DNA from: Flavobacterium flabelliforme | GTDB taxonomy: Bacteria > Bacteroidota > Bacteroidia > Flavobacteriales > Flavobacteriaceae | DNA length: 64,000 nucleotides | Direction of reading: 5' to 3' | NCBI RefSeq assembly: GCF_017948675.1 | Contig: NZ_JAGFBU010000003.1 | Coordinates: forward strand, 335,627 to 399,626 | Shown: piece by piece, positions 27,185 through 58,266 of the stretch | Layout of the letters: each line of letters starts with the position of its first letter | Numbering within the stretch: position 1 is the stretch's first letter | Position numbers and translations under genes: made by a program | Notes under the pieces: generated by a model | Told to the model about the DNA's origin: nothing | The model's input: only the letters and a program-made list of their open reading frames with translations | The model's database searches: none

Positions 27185-27862
27185 ATGAAAATAACTTTTT
27201 ATGGTCACGCGTCTTTAGGAATTGAAGTAGCGGGTAAGCACATTCTAGTAGATCCTTATATTTCTGCAAATCCAAAAGCAGCACACATTGATATTAATGC
27301 ACTACAAGCCGATTTTATTTTGTTAACTCATGCACACGGAGATCATATTCTAGATGTTGAGGCAATTGCTACTAGGACGAATGCGGTAATTATTTCAAAT
27401 GCTGAAATTACAACTTATTATGCCGCTAAAGGCTTTAAATCCCATCCTATGAATCATGGCGGAAGCTGGAATTTTGATTTTGGTAAACTAAAATATGTAA
27501 ATGCAATTCATTCTAGTTCTTTTCCCGATGGCACTTATGGAGGTAATCCTGGAGGTTTTGTTATCGAAAGTGAACATAAAAACATTTACATCGCTGGCGA
27601 TACAGCTTTAACAATGGATATGAAACTGATCCCAATGCGTACCAAACTTGATTTGGCCATTTTACCAATTGGTGATAATTTTACGATGGATGTCGAAGAT
27701 GCTATTATTGCTTCCGATTTTGTGGATTGTGATAAAATTCTGGGTTATCACTACGATACATTTGGTTACATAGAAATTAATCATGAAGACGCCATTCGTA
27801 AATTCTTTAATAAAGGAAAGGATTTAATGTTACTTGAAATAGGCGAATCAATAGAATTGTAA
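27185..27862 (+). CDS. UPF0173 metal-dependent hydrolase (metallo-beta-lactamase fold)
   Basis: 225 aa, typical length. Metal site motifs: HASLGIEV near the start, the T-H-A-H-G-D-H motif at about residues 54-60, a later His in IHSSSFPDG, IAGDTALTMDMKLI (Asp), and the C-terminal GYHYDTFGYIEI (His). The family is UlaG/RNase Z-like with unknown substrate. It sits between menA and menC, an order I recall from other Flavobacteriaceae, but a link to quinone synthesis is not shown. Confidence 0.85.
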   Translation: MKITFYGHASLGIEVAGKHILVDPYISANPKAAHIDINALQADFILLTHAHGDHILDVEAIATRTNAVIISNAEITTYYAAKGFKSHPMNHGGSWNFDFGKLKYVNAIHSSSFPDGTYGGNPGGFVIESEHKNIYIAGDTALTMDMKLIPMRTKLDLAILPIGDNFTMDVEDAIIASDFVDCDKILGYHYDTFGYIEINHEDAIRKFFNKGKDLMLLEIGESIEL

Positions 27863-27870
27863 TTTTATTC

Positions 27871-27967
27871 GGAGCTATTCCAGCTATCCGTTGCAATCTT
27901 TTATAAAGTTTCTAGCCTTCAAAAGGCTAGAAACTTTATAAAAGGATTTTCACTTCTATCTGGGCTA
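27871..27967. repeat. Flavobacterial interspersed hairpin element, copy 1
   Basis: A left flank (GGAGCTATTCCAGCTATCCG), then a perfect inverted repeat TTTTATAAAGTTTCTAGCC (27899-27917) / its complement (27925-27943), extendable to 21 bp, then a right flank (GGATTTTCACTTCTATCTGG). The same flanks around a different hairpin recur at 47680-47762, and a related form is at 57552-57648. Function unknown. Confidence 0.75.
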
Positions 27968-27987
27968 AAATCATCTTAATTAAGAAT

Positions 27988-29193
27988 ATGAATACTATAA
28001 AAGGACTTTTTTTGCTGCTAACAATGTTTGCTTTTCAAATCAATTTAGCACAAAAAGACGGTTATTGGGATAAAACACGCGCTACAAGCGAGGAAATTAC
28101 TGTTTCTGCACGAGAGCGAATTATTATTAAAACACAAGATTTTCCGGAAGGAACTACCGAAGTTGTTTTTAGAATAACACTATTGGATAAAAACCAACAA
28201 ATGGCGGGTAGTTTGGTTTCTGTTCTTAAAGCCATTCCTGATCCCACCGGAATTTCCCAAGGTTCTGCTGGAGCAGTTTTTATTCTTTCTAAAATTTCAG
28301 GAGACGACAAATGCAAATATGCCATTTTCTCCTCTGCAGATTTAGCTACAAAATACAAAGAAAACGGTAAAACAGAAAACGCGTGCTTAGTACAAGATAC
28401 ACCTGTTAGTAAAGATGCTAAACTTCTTTCAACGGATAAATCGGCCTGCATGAAATCAAATTCAAGTAATTTATGGTTTGGATTTGAAAGCAAAAATTGG
28501 ATCATGAATCAGAAAGTAGTTCTAGAAGTAGTTCCTTGGGTTGATAATAAGTTGAGTCGTGGCTGGACAGCAGAAAATAGAAAATCTATTATAGATCAGT
28601 GTAAAACATCTAATCTGGCTCAAAAAATGAGTAATTCAGATGATTTTTGTGTCTGCATTTTAGATAAAATACAGTCGAAGTATAAGTATAAGGAATTTCA
28701 AAAATTATTGGCTGTAGAGCGCGCTAAAGCATTTAAGGATTTTGGCAACAGTTGTTTTGGCGAAAGTACTCTTTCTTCAGCTGTTTATGAAGATTTACGC
28801 AAACAAGCAGCCTCATTATCAAAACAAGGGAAACCTGGTGAAGCAATTACTAAATTAGCAACGATAATTAATGATAATAAAGCCAATGCACTAGATTATA
28901 ACGCTATTGGAAACAATTATATTTTGACCAAACAATACGGAAAAGCAATTAAATTTCTTAAAGAAGGCGAGAAGCTCGATGAATCAGAATTATTAATAAA
29001 ATTAAATTTAGCACACTCTTATTTATTAAATGATAATTATTCAACAGCCAAATCTATTTATAAGGAATACCAATATCAAAATGTTACAGATAGCTTGAGT
29101 TGGACTGAAAAGATAAAACAAGACTTTGAGACATTTAAAAAGGTTGGAATAGAAAACGACGATTTTAAAAGAGTATTAAAGTTGTTCAATTGA
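27988..29193 (+). CDS. Secreted TPR-containing protein
   Basis: 401 aa. Signal peptide at residues 1-21 (ending I-N-L-A-Q). Residues ~25-200 form a beta-rich domain of unknown type with several Cys, followed by a Cys-containing segment around FCVCILDKI (residues ~222-230). The C-terminal ~130 residues contain three or so TPR-like helices (QGKPGEAITKLATIINDN, NALDYNAIGNNYILTKQYGKAIKFLKEGEKL). TPRs usually bind partner proteins. I do not recognise the specific family. Confidence 0.7.
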   Translation: MNTIKGLFLLLTMFAFQINLAQKDGYWDKTRATSEEITVSARERIIIKTQDFPEGTTEVVFRITLLDKNQQMAGSLVSVLKAIPDPTGISQGSAGAVFILSKISGDDKCKYAIFSSADLATKYKENGKTENACLVQDTPVSKDAKLLSTDKSACMKSNSSNLWFGFESKNWIMNQKVVLEVVPWVDNKLSRGWTAENRKSIIDQCKTSNLAQKMSNSDDFCVCILDKIQSKYKYKEFQKLLAVERAKAFKDFGNSCFGESTLSSAVYEDLRKQAASLSKQGKPGEAITKLATIINDNKANALDYNAIGNNYILTKQYGKAIKFLKEGEKLDESELLIKLNLAHSYLLNDNYSTAKSIYKEYQYQNVTDSLSWTEKIKQDFETFKKVGIENDDFKRVLKLFN

Positions 29194-46883: not shown

Positions 46884-46918
46884 ATAAAAAAAGCTGTCGG
46901 TTAAGACAGCTTTTTAAT
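46884..46918 (-). terminator. Terminator of the LOG-family gene
   Basis: Perfect arms AAAAAGCTGTC (46888-46898) and GACAGCTTTTT (46905-46915) with a 6-nt loop, directly after the stop. Confidence 0.88.
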
Positions 46919-47646
46919 TAAAAATTGGGTGATAAATCATATTTTTTATAAAATTTATCAAGTATTTCAACGACCTCCTCTGCAGTATCAACGATTTTAA
47001 ATAAATTTAAATCCTCTGGACTTACAGTAAGTTCTTTTTCTACTAAAACTGTTTTAATCCAATCGAGCAATCCAGACCAAAAGCTTGTTCCCACTAATAT
47101 TATAGGAAACTTAGCCACTTTTTTAGTCTGAATCAAGGTGATAGCTTCAAACAATTCATCCATCGTTCCAAAACCTCCAGGCATCACAACAAAACCTTGA
47201 GAATACTTTACGAACATCACTTTACGAACAAAGAAATAATCGAAATTCAAGTTTTTATCACCGTCGATATAGGGATTAAAATGTTGCTCAAAAGGCAATT
47301 CAATATTTAGTCCCACAGAAGTTCCGCCACCAAGATGTGCGCCTTTATTACCAGCTTCCATAATACCTGGACCACCGCCCGTAATTACACCATAACCAGC
47401 TTTACTAATTTTGTATGCTATTTTTTCTGCTAGTATATAATGAGGCGAATCAGCTTTTGTTCGCGCCGATCCAAAAATAGAAACACAAGGTCCTATGCGA
47501 CCCATTGTTTCATAACCGTTTACAAATTCTGCCATGATTTTAAAAATGGCCCAACTATCATTTGTTCTAATTTCGTTCCAACTTTTTTGCTTTAATCGAT
47601 CTTGGATTACTTTATCCTCATCATTGTCAAAATCTTCTAATCTCAT
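46918..47646 (-). CDS. LOG family protein (TIGR00730, Rossmann-like nucleotide phosphoribohydrolase)
   Basis: 242 aa. Signature motifs GGGPGIMEAGNKGA and PGGFGTMDELFEA (PGGxGTxxE) are intact. Enzymes of this family release cytokinin-like bases or cleave nucleoside 5'-monophosphates to base plus ribose 5-phosphate. Type II-like size. Physiological substrate not known. Confidence 0.9.
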   Translation of the reverse strand: MRLEDFDNDEDKVIQDRLKQKSWNEIRTNDSWAIFKIMAEFVNGYETMGRIGPCVSIFGSARTKADSPHYILAEKIAYKISKAGYGVITGGGPGIMEAGNKGAHLGGGTSVGLNIELPFEQHFNPYIDGDKNLNFDYFFVRKVMFVKYSQGFVVMPGGFGTMDELFEAITLIQTKKVAKFPIILVGTSFWSGLLDWIKTVLVEKELTVSPEDLNLFKIVDTAEEVVEILDKFYKKYDLSPNF

Positions 47647-47679: not shown

Positions 47680-47762
47680 GGAGCTTTTTCCAGCTATTTG
47701 TTCCAATCTTTTTATTTTTTTTCAAAAAAAACAAAAAGGATTTCCACTTCTATCTGGGCTAG
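47680..47762. repeat. Flavobacterial interspersed hairpin element, copy 2
   Basis: Flanks nearly match those of copy 1 at 27871 (GGAGCTTTTTCCAGCTATTT... and ...GGATTTCCACTTCTATCTGG) around a weaker A/T inverted repeat. It lies in the divergent region between the LOG gene and the quinone oxidoreductase gene. Confidence 0.75.
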
Positions 47763-47952
47763 GACTCCAATTTACTAAAGTAATTCTTTTTTATCAATAA
47801 AGTGAAATCAATCTTTAATTTTAAGATTATATTGTTGTTTTCTACCTTACAAAGCTTCTAAAATTAAATTTATTTACTGATTTAAAAGAAAAAAGAAATA
47901 AGTGGTTAAGGTCAAAAAAACTTATCTTTAAGGATATCAAAATAATGAGATC

Positions 47953-48927
47953 ATGAAAGCTATTCATATTACAAAATCTGGCGGACCAGAAGTGTTGCAG
48001 TTACAAGAAACTCCAAAACCCAAACCAGATAAAAATCAAGTATTAATCAAAGTCAAAGCAGCTGGTGTGAATCGCAGTGATGTAATTACGCGTCAAAATA
48101 GTGATGCCTACGGTAAAGGATTTACAGGAACTTTAATTCCTGGTTTAGAAGTTTCAGGAGAAATAACAGCAATTGGCGAAAATGTAACCGACAAAAAAAT
48201 TGGAGATAAAGTATGTGCACTTATCGCAAGCGGAGGATATGCCGAATATGTTGTGGTAAACACTTCGCATTGTCTTTTCATTCCAGATGGAATCAGTCTA
48301 ATAGATGCAGCAGCCATTCCAGAGACTGTTTTTACGGTTTGGTTTAACGTTTTTCATTTAGGAAAACTGCAACCTAACGAGAAGTTATTAATACATGGCG
48401 GAACAAGTGGTATTGGCACCATGGGTTTACAAATGGCAAAAGCTTATGGTTGTAAAGTTTACACCACTGCAGGAAGTGACAAAAAGATTGATTTTTTAAA
48501 TAAAATGAACTTAGGAATGGCAATCAATTATAAAAAAGAGGCTTTTGAAGAAGTGTTAAAAGAGGAAAAAATTGATGTTATTCTAGATATGGTTGGAGGA
48601 GATTATACGCAAAAGAATCTTGAAATATTAAACGAGAAAGGCCGCTTAATTTATATCAACGGAATGAAAAGTTCGGAGGTAAATATTAATTTGCGCACAA
48701 TTATGAGTAAGAATCTAACCTTGACAGGTAGCTTTCTTAAACCTCAATCTGATGAAGTAAAAACTCAGATTGCAAAAGAGGTAGAAACCAACATTTGGCC
48801 ACTATTTCATTCTAAACAAATTCATCCTGTAATTTATAAAACTTTTCCTTTAGAACAAGCTGCAGAAGCGCATAGACTTATGGAAAGTAGTGATCATATT
48901 GGTAAAATTCTATTGACAATGGATTGA
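47953..48927 (+). CDS. NAD(P)H-quinone oxidoreductase, zeta-crystallin type
   Basis: 324 aa. Zinc-free medium-chain dehydrogenase. Start MKAIHITKSGGPEVLQLQETPKP, the GVNRSDVITRQ segment and the nucleotide-binding loop IHGGTSGIGTMGLQMAKAYG are typical of quinone reductase-like MDR proteins (PIG3 / Qor group). It transfers electrons from NAD(P)H to quinones or other enones. Single gene with a divergent neighbour. Confidence 0.88.
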   Translation: MKAIHITKSGGPEVLQLQETPKPKPDKNQVLIKVKAAGVNRSDVITRQNSDAYGKGFTGTLIPGLEVSGEITAIGENVTDKKIGDKVCALIASGGYAEYVVVNTSHCLFIPDGISLIDAAAIPETVFTVWFNVFHLGKLQPNEKLLIHGGTSGIGTMGLQMAKAYGCKVYTTAGSDKKIDFLNKMNLGMAINYKKEAFEEVLKEEKIDVILDMVGGDYTQKNLEILNEKGRLIYINGMKSSEVNINLRTIMSKNLTLTGSFLKPQSDEVKTQIAKEVETNIWPLFHSKQIHPVIYKTFPLEQAAEAHRLMESSDHIGKILLTMD

Positions 48928-49169
48928 TATTATTAAAAAATAATCAAACTCAAATTTGATAATATAGTAATGAAACTAACTTCCTATTATTTTTTTAAAT
49001 GACCTTTTTGAACAATAAAAAAAATAATTTAGAATATTGAGATTTTAAAAGTTACAATTTAAAATTTGCTGTTTTTAAAATAGAATTGCTTTAATCTTCA
49101 ATTGATACGTTCCATAAGACACTACTCAATGTTAATTAATAATTGATATATTTGAATAAAAATAATAGT

Positions 49170-49520
49170 ATGAAAAACACTTTTTTGATTCTCTTCTTTA
49201 CGCTTTTTACGGCTACCATTTCCGCTCAAGATGGTAAGAAAAACCAGAAAGCAGTAATAAAAACAACTCTTTTTTGCGATCATTGTAAACAGTGTGAAAC
49301 TTGTGGAGGAAATTTCCAATCCAATATGTTGAAAATAAAAGGAGTGAAAATGTACGAACTAGATGAAAAAAACAGCACAATTACCGTTTTTTACAATAGT
49401 CAAAAAACAAATCTAGAAACTATAAAATCAGGTATTTCAAAAATGGGTTATGATGCTGATGATGTAAAAGCAGACGTTGTAGCTTATGAACAATTAGATG
49501 ATTGTTGCAAAAAAGTATAA
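49170..49520 (+). CDS. Secreted heavy-metal-associated (HMA) domain protein
   Basis: 116 aa from the start at 49170, which begins a signal peptide (MKNTFLILFF..., ending T-I-S-A-Q). The HMA fold spans residues ~29-95 with a Cys-rich metal loop C-D-H-C-K-Q-C-E-T-C (longer than the usual C-x-x-C) and the typical SNMLKIKGVKMYELDEKNSTITVFYN strand-helix pattern. Two more Cys lie at the C-terminus (DDCCKK). A periplasmic copper or other soft-metal chaperone is likely. Confidence 0.82.
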   Translation: MKNTFLILFFTLFTATISAQDGKKNQKAVIKTTLFCDHCKQCETCGGNFQSNMLKIKGVKMYELDEKNSTITVFYNSQKTNLETIKSGISKMGYDADDVKADVVAYEQLDDCCKKV

Positions 49521-49775: not shown

Positions 49776-52607
49776 TTAAGCCAATTCCTTTTTTAAGAAT
49801 TGTGCTGTATAACTCTTTTTATTTTTTGCGACTTCTTCTGGAGTTCCTTTGGCGATAAGTTGGCCTCCGCCTTTCCCACCTTCAGGACCAATGTCGATGA
49901 TGTAATCTGCTAGTTTTATCACATCCATATTGTGTTCGATAATCAAAATGGTATTTCCTTTATCGACTAGTTTATTAATTACTTCCATTAATACTCTAAT
50001 ATCTTCAAAATGCAAACCTGTTGTAGGTTCATCGAGAATATAAAAAGTATTTCCAGTATCTTTTTTAGATAATTCTCCCGCTAGTTTGATGCGTTGCGCT
50101 TCTCCACCAGAAAGTGTTGTGCTTTGTTGTCCCAATGTAATGTAGCCTAAACCAACATCCTGAATCGTTTTTACTTTTCTGTAAATCTTCGGAATCAATT
50201 CAAAAAACGGAACCGCTTCATCTACCGTCATATTCAACACATCAGAAATGGATTTTCCTTTGTATCGAATCTCCAATGTTTCTCTATTAAAACGTTTTCC
50301 TTGACAAGTCTCACATTCAACATACACATCAGGTAAAAAGTTCATTTCTATTGTTCGAACTCCAGAACCTTCACAGGTTTCGCAACGTCCTCCTTTTACA
50401 TTAAAACTAAAACGACCTGCTTTATAACCCCGAATCATACTTTCTGAAGTCATAGTAAACAGATTTCTAATTTCTGTAAAAACTTCGGTATATGTCGCAG
50501 GATTCGAGCGTGGAGTTCTACCAATTGGGCTTTGATCAATATCAATTACTTTATCGATATGTTCTAATCCTTCAATTTTTTTGTACGGTTTTGGTTTTTT
50601 GACTCCATTAAAATAATAGGCATTCAAAATAGGGTAAAGCGTCTCATTAATCAAAGTAGATTTTCCACTTCCAGAAACTCCTGTAACACAAATCATTTTT
50701 CCTAAAGGCAACTCTATCGAAACATTTTTTAAGTTATTTCCTGTTGCACCCGTTAATTTTAGGAACTTTCCGTTTCCTTCCCGACGCTTTTTAGGAACCT
50801 CAATTTTCATTTCACCATTCATGTACATTGCTGTAATAGTATGGTGATTCAAGATTTCTGCAGGTGTTCCTTTGCTGATGATTTCACCACCATACTTCCC
50901 TGCTTTTGGTCCAATATCTATGACATAATCAGCACGTTCAATCATGTCTTTATCGTGTTCTACCACAATAACTGAGTTGCCAATATCTCTCAATTGTTCT
51001 AGAGAATGAATTAGTTTTTCGTTATCTCTTTGGTGCAAACCAATGCTAGGCTCATCAAGAATATACAAAACACCAACCAACTGCGAACCAATTTGAGTTG
51101 CCAATCGAATGCGTTGCGCTTCCCCACCCGAAAGTGATTTTGAACTTCGGCTTAAAGCCAAATAATCCAAGCCTACATTCATCAAGAAGTTTAGTCGGTC
51201 CTTAATCTCTTTAATTACTTCAGTAGCGATACGCTTTTGTTTATCAGATAAATGAGTATTTAAATCATGAAACCAAGCCGTTAAATCCGAAATGTCCATA
51301 TCGCACAATTCGGCTATGTTTTTTTCGTTTATTTTAAAGAATAATGCCTCTTTTTTCAAACGAGAACCATCACAAACAGGACAGTTAACTTCGTCCATAA
51401 ATTCCTTAGCCCATCTTTTAATAGTAGTGGATCCACTTTCTTCGTATTGATTTTTAATGAAATTAGATATTCCTTCAAAATCAATTTTATAGTCACGAGC
51501 CACTCCTAAATCTTTAGAATTAACTGTGAATTTTTCTTTTCCACCATTCAAAATCATTTCCATTGCTTCCGCTGGGATTTTTTCGATGGCATCCGTTAAT
51601 TTAAAACCATATTTTTCTCCTATGATTTCTAATTGCTTAAAAATCCAAGAACTTTTATATTCTCCCAAAGGAGCAAATCCACCGGCTTTAATTGTCAATT
51701 TTGGATTTGGAACAATCTTTTTACTATTAATTTCATTCACTGTTCCCAAACCGTTGCAATGATCGCAAGCGCCTTTTGGAGAGTTGAAAGAAAATAAATT
51801 AGGTTCTGGGTTTTGATAGGAAATTCCAGTAGTAGGACACATTAAATTTCTACTAAAATAGCGCACTTCATTAGAATCTTGATCTAAAACCATTAATACG
51901 TTTTCACCATGATGCATGGCAGTATTAATACTTTCTGATAATCTTTTTTCATTCTCAGGGCTTTCATCAATAACCATTCTATCTACTACAATTTCGATAT
52001 CATGTGTTTTGTAACGGTCTAATTTCATTCCTAAAGTAATATCAAGAATATCATTATTGACACGTACTTTAAGGAAACCTTGTTTGGCTATTTGTTGAAA
52101 AAGTTCTGCGTAATGTCCTTTTCTAGCACGAATAACAGGCGCCAAAATATTGATTCGTTTTCCAGCAAAATCCTGAATAATCAAATCTTTAATTTGTTCA
52201 TCAGAATAGGAAACCATTTTTTCTCCCGTGTTATAACTATAAGCATCAGCGCCACGAGCATAAAGCAAACGCAAGAAATCATATATTTCAGTAATGGTTC
52301 CCACAGTAGATCGAGGACTTTTACTAGTCGTTTTTTGTTCGATAGCAATTACTGGAGAAAGTCCATCAATTTTATCTACATCAGGACGTTCTAACCCGCC
52401 TAGAAATTGCCTTGCATAAGCAGAAAAAGTTTCTACATAACGACGCTGCCCTTCGGCATATATGGTGTCGAAAGCAAGTGAGGATTTTCCAGAGCCTGAA
52501 AGTCCAGTGATTACTACTAGTTTTTCTCGGGGAATGGAAACATCTATATTTTTGAGATTGTGAACGCGAGCGCCTTGAACTTCAATGGTATTGTCTTTGT
52601 CTAACAT
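49776..52607 (-). CDS. uvrA: Excinuclease ABC subunit A
   Basis: 943 aa, full length. Two ABC ATPase modules: Walker [15 protein letters not shown] and [14 protein letters not shown], and signatures [12 protein letters not shown] and [12 protein letters not shown]. Two zinc modules are visible with Cys pairs (C-D-H-C and the later C-E-T-C ... C-E-T-C). UvrA scans DNA for bulky lesions with UvrB in nucleotide excision repair. Single gene on the minus strand. Confidence 0.97.
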
Positions 52608-57551: not shown

Positions 57552-57648
57552 GGGCGTGTTCGCCGCGGCGAACGGGCTGTACACTGTATCTTTTTTGGTC
57601 TCGTAAAAAAACGAGACCAAAAAAGGATGCCGTTTCCATCCCTCACGC
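57552..57648. repeat. Flavobacterial interspersed hairpin element, related form
   Basis: GGGCGTG, then a 14-bp palindrome (TTCGCCGCGGCGAA), then CGGGCTGTACACTGTATC, then a perfect 14-bp stem TTTTTTGGTCTCGT (57591-57604) / its complement (57611-57624), then GGATGCCGTTTCCATCCC and CACGC. The layout (…TATC-T-run-stem-A-run-GGAT…) parallels the elements at 27871 and 47680, but the outer sequence differs. It lies between the HD gene's stop and the WYL gene's start. Confidence 0.65.
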
Positions 57649-57651
57649 AAT

Positions 57652-58266
57652 TCACGTTAATGAGATAATTTCTCTTTTAATATTAGCTCTTGCCTTTTCT
57701 TCAAATAATAATCTAAATTCTTCTGTTTGAAAAATAAACTCATTTTCTAAGAAATGTTCTAAAGCTTTTTTCCGGCCAGGATTGTATAGAAAATCAGGAT
57801 AAATGCGATATTCTTTTCTAATTTGGTTGTAATATATTTGATAAGCTTCCCAATCTTTAGCAAGGATTTTTAAATCAAAATCAATCAACCAATTGATGTC
57901 TTCAATTGCATTGTGTTGATGAAGTTGTGTGGCACAAATCATATCAAAAATCAATTGTTTATCAAGTAATTCATTGCTAGATAAAACTTTTAGTGCTAAT
58001 TCAGCACTTTTCAATTCATTATCTTTTCGCGTTGCTTTATAAATAGAGTCGTGATAGAAAATACTAAACAACACTTGATCGGGATTTTGTAGCTTATTTT
58101 TATACTTTTCAAATAATTCAATCATTTCTTCTAAATGAGTCAAATTATGATAGTGTCTTGATTTACTAGAATAGGCTTTTGCTAAATCAAGCCATAAGGT
58201 CTTTACATTAGTAGGATTAAAGCCGTTTTTTAATAGTAATTCCGAGTATATTTGAGATAGGTTCAC
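57652..58266 (-). CDS. HD-domain phosphohydrolase-like protein
   Basis: 204 aa. HD-type metal motif FYHDSIY at about residues 69-75, preceded by an upstream His (HYHNLTHLEEMIELF) and followed by CATQLHQHN. This is the pattern of HD-domain predicted hydrolases; nucleotide or phosphoester hydrolysis is likely, substrate unknown. The neighbouring WYL and Pnk-type genes suggest a role with RNA or nucleotide repair, by association only. Confidence 0.78.
   Translation of the reverse strand: MNLSQIYSELLLKNGFNPTNVKTLWLDLAKAYSSKSRHYHNLTHLEEMIELFEKYKNKLQNPDQVLFSIFYHDSIYKATRKDNELKSAELALKVLSSNELLDKQLIFDMICATQLHQHNAIEDINWLIDFDLKILAKDWEAYQIYYNQIRKEYRIYPDFLYNPGRKKALEHFLENEFIFQTEEFRLLFEEKARANIKREIISLT

Follow-up and report, generated by a model that had tools for sequence, protein, structure and literature searches.

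The element at positions 27871–27967 of the window (the whole 64,000-nucleotide stretch of the Flavobacterium flabelliforme genome that was analysed) is a copy of Flavo-1, Rfam family RF01705, which it matches with 73.8 bits against a gathering cut-off of 42, the minus strand being the one that folds. Flavo-1 RNA was already described as RF01705, as the relevant section of Weinberg et al. (2010; PMC2864571) records, and the window element is a member of that named family. Two properties go beyond the Rfam model, namely a second type of end, here called type B, and tips that are swapped wholesale above a locus-specific lower stem. The pairing of this lower stem is kept by two-sided base changes at fixed positions across the genus, and the copies are largely inherited in place. 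The structure looks selected, and on that ground may be functional. Our reading of Flavo-1 as a dispersed intergenic module that serves as a protein-bound DNA hairpin site is tentative, a real possibility if somewhat short of an even chance.

Three copies of the element were found in the window, all of them above the RF01705 gathering score (Table 1). The sequence-only reading had proposed that the copies at 27871 and 47680 have their flanks in common, which was confirmed by reading both copies in the sequence, and both belong to RF01705. It had also described the hairpin of copy 1 as different and perfect; different it is, copy 2 carrying a weaker, A/T hairpin, and on direct reading it is near-perfect. 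A pattern made from the right flank matched the window twice and none of 100 shuffled windows, and in the whole host genome (G000) it gave 29 matches at no more than three mismatches against 0 for a reversed control. With the Rfam model, the host genome gave 85 matches at E ≤ 1e-3, 77 of them above the gathering score, and a single-contig relative (G193) gave 86; the copies below the gathering score (8 of 85 and 12 of 86, respectively) do not enter the ortholog and context counts given below. A survey of 149 genomes sampled from the family gave RF01705 matches in 96, against 0 of 14 control genomes, and its per-genome counts are lower bounds since at most 29 candidates were scored per genome.

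Table 1. Flavo-1 copies, their parts and adjoining genes in window coordinates (window coordinate = contig coordinate less 335626)
Feature	Position	Strand	Details
Upstream gene, metallo-beta-lactamase-fold hydrolase	27185–27862	+	Copy 1 begins 8 bases past its stop codon
Flavo-1 type A, copy 1	27871–27967	-	RF01705, 73.8 bits; model span G000 C32:363499–363596 = window 27873–27970
Copy 1, lower-stem half, GGAGC end	27871–27898	-	GGAGCTATTCCAGCTATCCGTTGCAATC; x base at 27882; direct reading and covariation
Copy 1, replaceable terminal hairpin (tip)	27899–27943	-	Near-perfect hairpin; direct reading, tip comparisons and fold
Copy 1, lower-stem half, GGGCTA end	27944–27967	-	GGATTTTCACTTCTATCTGGGCTA; partner x′ at 27961; direct reading and covariation
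Downstream gene	27988–29193	+	Weak TPR similarity, below the Pfam cut-off
Gene adjoining copy 2, Lysine_decarbox (LOG-like) family	46918–47646	-	
Flavo-1 type A, copy 2	47680–47761	-	RF01705, 76.2 bits; model span 47683–47764
Flavo-1 type B, copy 3	57552–57648	-	RF01705, 55.9 bits; G000 C32:393192–393279 = window 57566–57653
Copy 3, closing stem	57554–57558/57644–57648		
Copy 3, side hairpin	57559–57572		
Copy 3, main stem			Carries its own tip

In the predicted fold, the two constant flanks come together on the RF01705 strand as a lower stem with conserved G·A mismatches, of which the variable hairpin is the tip. The flanks had earlier been taken to be constant and single-stranded; this did not hold, as they pair as the lower stem and several of their pairs swap identity. 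Among ten anchored lower-stem positions, pairs 1, 5, 9, and 10 from the outside vary together. Counts anchored on sequence, in which a G-T of the reading strand was taken as paired, could be made for 112 of 151 copies. In the 55 copies from G000, the four pairs were formed in 53, 53, 49, and 43 copies against shuffled means of 25.7, 27.0, 41.2, and 33.0 (the x–x′ pair in 53/55 against 25.7 and the fifth pair in 53/55 against 27.0), and none of 2000 shuffles reached the observed pairing at any of the four. In the 57 copies from G193, they were formed in 54, 54, 55, and 44 against 30.2, 25.1, 43.7, and 36.0. The positions between the covarying pairs hold a fixed mismatch, C·T or T·C on the reading strand and G·A on the RF01705 strand, and these mismatches were retained in 52, 53, and 49 of the 55 G000 copies. 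For copy 1, both the lower stem and the tip form when the RF01705 strand is folded (z -5.9), and the plus strand folds the tip without the lower stem (z -7.5). The lower stem with covarying pairs that membership in RF01705 requires is thus present.

The copy 1 locus was followed across the genus through the hydrolase gene; from at least 420 loci the 80 best were taken, which are the nearest relatives and are titled Flavobacterium. A covariance model (R1) built from 31 G000 and G193 copies placed the element after the same hydrolase stop codon in 51 of these 80 best loci, six of the 51 scoring below 30 bits; a regular expression found it in 31 of the 80, and the count of the covariance model is used here. 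None of the 51 orthologs is farther than about 115 bases from the hydrolase stop codon, and each of them runs on the opposite strand from the gene; the same search of 445 kb around the 80 hydrolase genes gave zero matches outside this position. In the alignment of the 51 orthologs, 97.2% of 1037 pair cells were paired, against 40.7–49.6% with partners slid by one to three columns; two-sided changes were found in 18 of 21 pairs, and the covariation score was 0.702 against at most 0.116 for slid partners. Being fitted to the model, this alignment flatters the pairing, and the sequence-anchored counts agree with it. The sequence-only reading had argued for a constrained structure as opposed to a decayed transposon, and this is borne out by pairing kept at one orthologous place in 51 loci, with place and orientation kept as well. 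Single copies are often lost, the other 29 of the 80 best loci (of at least 420) having no model match. In a set of 30 loci for each of two places in the window, those of copies 1 and 2, a looser script found the element in 27 of 30 at both, and the covariance model gave clear matches in 27 of the 30 copy 1 loci and found an element in 25 of the 30 copy 2 loci, the latter fetched through the gene adjoining that copy.

Position and orientation were also compared between the two genomes, using the 77 G000 copies and 74 of the 86 G193 copies. For 42 of the 77, both flanks were matched by those of a G193 copy, and the orientation was the same in 42/42; the alignable flanks had a mean identity of 0.842. 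Five of the 77 had one flank matched, two of these in the opposite orientation, which are probably neighbours rather than orthologs, and 30 had no flank match. Two copies missing from G193 were followed by eye in 25 relatives. The first was intact in 13, a collapsed remnant in 1, and lacking in 11, inserted genes standing at the site in 6 of the 11. The second was intact in about 10, damaged in 4, unreadable in 4, and lacking in 7. Because they are present, intact or damaged, among these relatives, both copies are taken to be old and to have been lost or damaged in G193, and the comparison of filled and empty sites at the two loci indicated old presence and loss. In each of the two genomes, the RNase P RNA gene has a Flavo-1 copy at a distance of about 0.5 kb (G000 C32:36567–37428 and G193 C1:2054333–2055196).

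The tips could be cut out automatically for 65 of the 77 G000 copies and 59 of the 74 G193 copies above the cut-off. Hairpins that fail to pair in most copies had been named beforehand as the observation that would count against a functional structure; these 65 and 59 tips were found to be mostly complementary. Of eight outer Watson-Crick pairs, a mean of 7.09 was formed in G000 (n = 65), against 4.69 with swapped partners, and 6.64 in G193 (n = 59), against 3.29; at least seven of the eight were formed in 50/65 and 36/59 tips, respectively. Between genomes the tips change far more than the stem beneath them: in the 32 of 42 ortholog pairs that could be split, the lower-stem halves were 0.866 and 0.909 identical, the tips 0.577, and the adjacent 40 bases 0.70. 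Some ortholog tips are conserved, one of them identical, and others are wholly replaced; in tip-replaced copies the lower stem mostly retains the x base and other bases specific to its locus. What had been proposed as compensating change in the hairpin is thus often wholesale replacement of the tip. One tip type (CACGC..AAAAGCGTG) made up 13 of 59 G193 tips, spread over different loci, and 2 of 65 G000 tips, which points to exchange between copies or to repeated re-creation of one stable hairpin. The common G193 type reads CACGCCCAAAAGCGTG, with variants (e.g. L211, L216, and L222), and the orthologous G000 tips are mostly unrelated to it. Because tip replacement could also come from copying errors at hairpins, the strong evidence for selection lies in the lower stem and not in the tip.

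The GGGCTA end was lacking in 36 of the 151 copies, and for 35 of these the start of a closing stem was assigned by pattern. These type B copies, which include the one at 57552–57648 of the window, are closed by a covarying stem, and in most of them a side hairpin precedes the usual main stem. In the 35 sequences, 97.1% of the closing-stem cells were paired, 4 of its 5 pairs showing two-sided changes, and over the whole type B structure 92.9% of cells were paired against 27–43% for slid partners; the left ends had been picked by matching to listed start patterns, which leaves the agreement of the opposite strand as the sole test. The base of the side hairpin is weaker, with 76.5% paired and one of three columns mostly unpaired. 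Copy 3 of the window and one G193 type B copy fold as three-way junctions, the latter with a z of -1.2, non-significant against shuffles. By eye, the side hairpin is often like GCTTTCACTAGCGTTACAGC (L149, L154, L162, L207, L228, L230, and L235), and it looks like a repetition of the main stem's internal-loop module. This larger three-way-junction form is missed by the Rfam model.

The gene context of the copies was determined from codon-usage gene calls. The 77 G000 copies comprised 61 between tandem genes, 13 between divergent genes, 3 between convergent genes, and 0 inside genes, and the 74 G193 copies comprised 48, 16, 9, and 1, respectively. Because ordinary gaps of the window are similar (among 34 gaps of at least 90 bases, 23 tandem, 7 divergent, and 4 convergent), this context is not clearly special. 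Orientation was counted on the union of G000 copies and copies found in G193 only. For tandem copies nearer to a stop than to a start codon, the RF01705 strand was antisense to the stop-side gene in 41 and the same in 16 (binomial p = 0.001), and over all tandem copies antisense outnumbered same-strand by 49 to 29 (p = 0.03). Copies nearer a start codon lean the opposite way, with 13 on the same strand and 8 antisense, and relative to the nearer gene the divergent copies gave 13 and 7. Polarity along the replication arms of G193 was not seen, with 26 plus and 15 minus on one arm and 24 plus and 9 minus on the other, the arms being set from dnaA at 1150 and the GC skew from sampled loci being noisy. 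At copy 2, the end of a uvrA-like gene adjoins the element in relatives, and reading of the window sequence places that gene at 49776–52607. Two genes at 47953–49520, between the LOG-like and uvrA-like genes, appear to be an insertion relative to these relatives, and because they separate copy 2 from the uvrA-like gene, the copy now lies between divergent genes.

The Rfam classification as sRNA raises the possibility that an RNA from the RF01705 strand, either part of a transcript or itself a small RNA, acts on the stability of mRNA, on termination, or on translation. Such a role would suit the very strong covariation and the position of nearly all copies between genes (inside genes 0/77 and 1/74), often soon past a stop codon. 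G-U also exceeds A-C on the RF01705 strand, at 23:7, 38:6, and 57:12 in three Flavo-1 alignments and 264:3 in RNase P RNA, and because the wobble there is G-U rather than A-C, this strand is taken as the folding strand. The G-U pairs are nevertheless rare for an RNA. Their share of standard pairs was 2.3%, 2.4%, and 3.9% in the three alignments, although these were fitted to an RNA model biased in favour of pairing and G-U; the RNase P RNA of 27 Flavobacterium genomes, the sole control for this comparison (60 of 61 genomes matched; 27 of 30 fetched loci aligned, with a predicted consensus structure), gave 12.6%. Among variable pairs, the shares were 1.8%, 2.7%, and 4.8% against 15.7% (95% bootstrap 9.7–22.3%). 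Low G-U fits maintenance as DNA, and selection for a stable RNA hairpin or template-switch copying could also give it. The folding strand is moreover antisense to the upstream gene in 51/51 orthologs of copy 1 and to the stop-side gene by 41:16, which makes a cis-acting mRNA element unlikely for most copies; no fixed-position promoter was visible beyond the GGGCTA end, no column exceeding 57% in 115 right-anchored copies. According to passages of a transcriptome study of F. psychrophilum (PMC9723704), several 5′ transcribed regions coincide with Flavo-1 matches, which suits an RNA role, and the same passages report matches both sense and antisense, many of them outside transcribed regions, which does not. 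We regard an RNA element as rather unlikely, and the rare G-U pairs together with the antisense folding strand favour, with moderate confidence, a protein-bound DNA hairpin over an mRNA element. A transcription terminator is very improbable indeed. A pattern scan flagged copy 1 on the plus strand (1 found against 0.2 expected) and many copies stand close behind a stop codon, but a short T tract is limited to one core variant (GGATTTTCACT), copies with GGATGCC or GGATACC having no T run; convergent gene pairs flank only 3 of 77 copies, and the orientation is mixed. A role in terminating convergent transcription in particular was rejected, convergent copies being few in G000 (3/77) and more in G193 (9/74).

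Flavo-1 could instead be an old non-autonomous mobile element of the MITE or REP-like kind, which an unknown or RAYT-type transposase once spread and which no longer moves. Its dispersal in 85 and 86 copies over the two genomes, its sharp ends, and its intergenic occurrence in both orientations would agree with this, as would other short repeats around Flavo-1 that behave as mobile. Presence of Flavo-1 was associated with RAYT genes among 149 genomes (47 of 60 RAYT-positive against 49 of 89 RAYT-negative, Fisher p = 0.005, with genome size and kinship uncontrolled). High copy number was not tied to RAYT, a match to which was found in 13 of the 33 genomes that have 10 or more Flavo-1 matches and in 47 of the 116 others. 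The surroundings of RAYT or IS200-type genes, taken from 27 sources at 25 distinct places, held a single Flavo-1 match, about 0.6 kb away (L031), which is compatible with chance. Y1 transposase genes were found in G000 itself, and by eye two of its RAYT genes are flanked by other palindromes. Recent copies were not seen in either genome, the best identity of a copy pair being 0.88 in G000 and 0.90 in G193. Plasmid and phage searches with the 97-base query gave no match, weakly informative in that the query carries a private tip, and viral contigs gave no match to one exact pattern, weak for its exactness. A dead element, furthermore, should not keep its pairing at fixed places, and an immobilised transposon is accordingly judged unlikely; mobilisation by a RAYT/REP system in particular was not supported overall, as the copies do not accompany RAYT genes, although presence is weakly associated with them. 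The pairing of the tips might also be mutational, produced by template-switch correction of palindromes in an element without function. Tips wholly replaced, and the one sequence type in 13 of 59 G193 tips at different loci, would be expected from this, but it leaves the conserved loop sequence, the paired substitutions in the lower stem, and those of the type B closing stem unexplained, which makes it quite improbable.

For a protein-bound DNA hairpin site, the lower stem would be recognised by a host protein as a folded single strand, in extruded or single-stranded DNA. REP/BIME palindromes are bound by protein in enterobacteria, and the supposed recognition of Flavo-1 is modelled on them. 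The only role of the tip would be to hold the two lower-stem halves together, and the site, usually flanked by co-directional genes, may exert its effect on the chromosome, perhaps as a mark for topology, the nucleoid, or repair, being neither a mobile element nor a small RNA. Put most fully, and with considerable doubt, Flavo-1 might be a DNA-level site of single-strand hairpins and three-way junctions at fixed addresses, with a lower stem putatively bound by a host protein and a tip exchanged as a cassette, and not an RNA gene. If a DNA-level reading is true, a family filed in Rfam as RNA would be a chromosome element, and the Flavo-1 binding protein would be a new target of study in Bacteroidetes. 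The label of repeat or sRNA gives way to testable statements: the addresses are fixed, one strand is preferred for folding, the lower stem is constrained, the tip is replaceable, and there is a larger form with a three-way junction.

The window copies share with Rfam's Flavo-1 the sequence, the lower-stem structure, and the occurrence in Bacteroidetes. Rfam's account covers the main stem only and classes it as sRNA, unlike which we found fixed orthologous addresses, exchangeable tips, type B, and few G-U pairs. A literature search found no functional study of Flavo-1, and a 2022 review (PMC9029176), in the part that names it, counts Flavo-1 among the most abundant small RNA families and gives no function. 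Like the REP/BIME and RAYT (TnpA-REP) systems, as treated in parts of one paper (PMC6006769), Flavo-1 is short, dispersed, intergenic, and structured; unlike them, it does not lie beside RAYT genes, and many of its copies are common to species at the same place. Those parts also describe the structures beside RAYT genes of the Bacteroidetes subclass 2.6 as atypical. In G000, a broken RAYT gene (L032:1447–3231, C53) was noticed near an open reading frame with a putative reverse-transcriptase-like YADD motif. The attC site of integrons is a single-strand hairpin with a conserved base and a variable tip. Flavo-1 resembles it in having such a hairpin, but differs in that no attC boxes were recognised by eye and in that the copies examined sit between ordinary genes.

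Other short repeats were met in contact with Flavo-1. Some Flavo-1 copies are interrupted, at corresponding points of their stems, by a second repeat with a length of about 50 bases, a start like AAACGAAGTTCACTGAACTC, and a final ATC (L245, L252, L259, L270, L296, L310, L312, where the copy follows the hydrolase stop codon, and L395); this second repeat looks mobile. In several species, a REP-like palindrome, GTCATTGCGAG...GAAGCAATCTC, adjoins the GGAGC end of Flavo-1 or is fused with it (L375, L386, L395, and L249).
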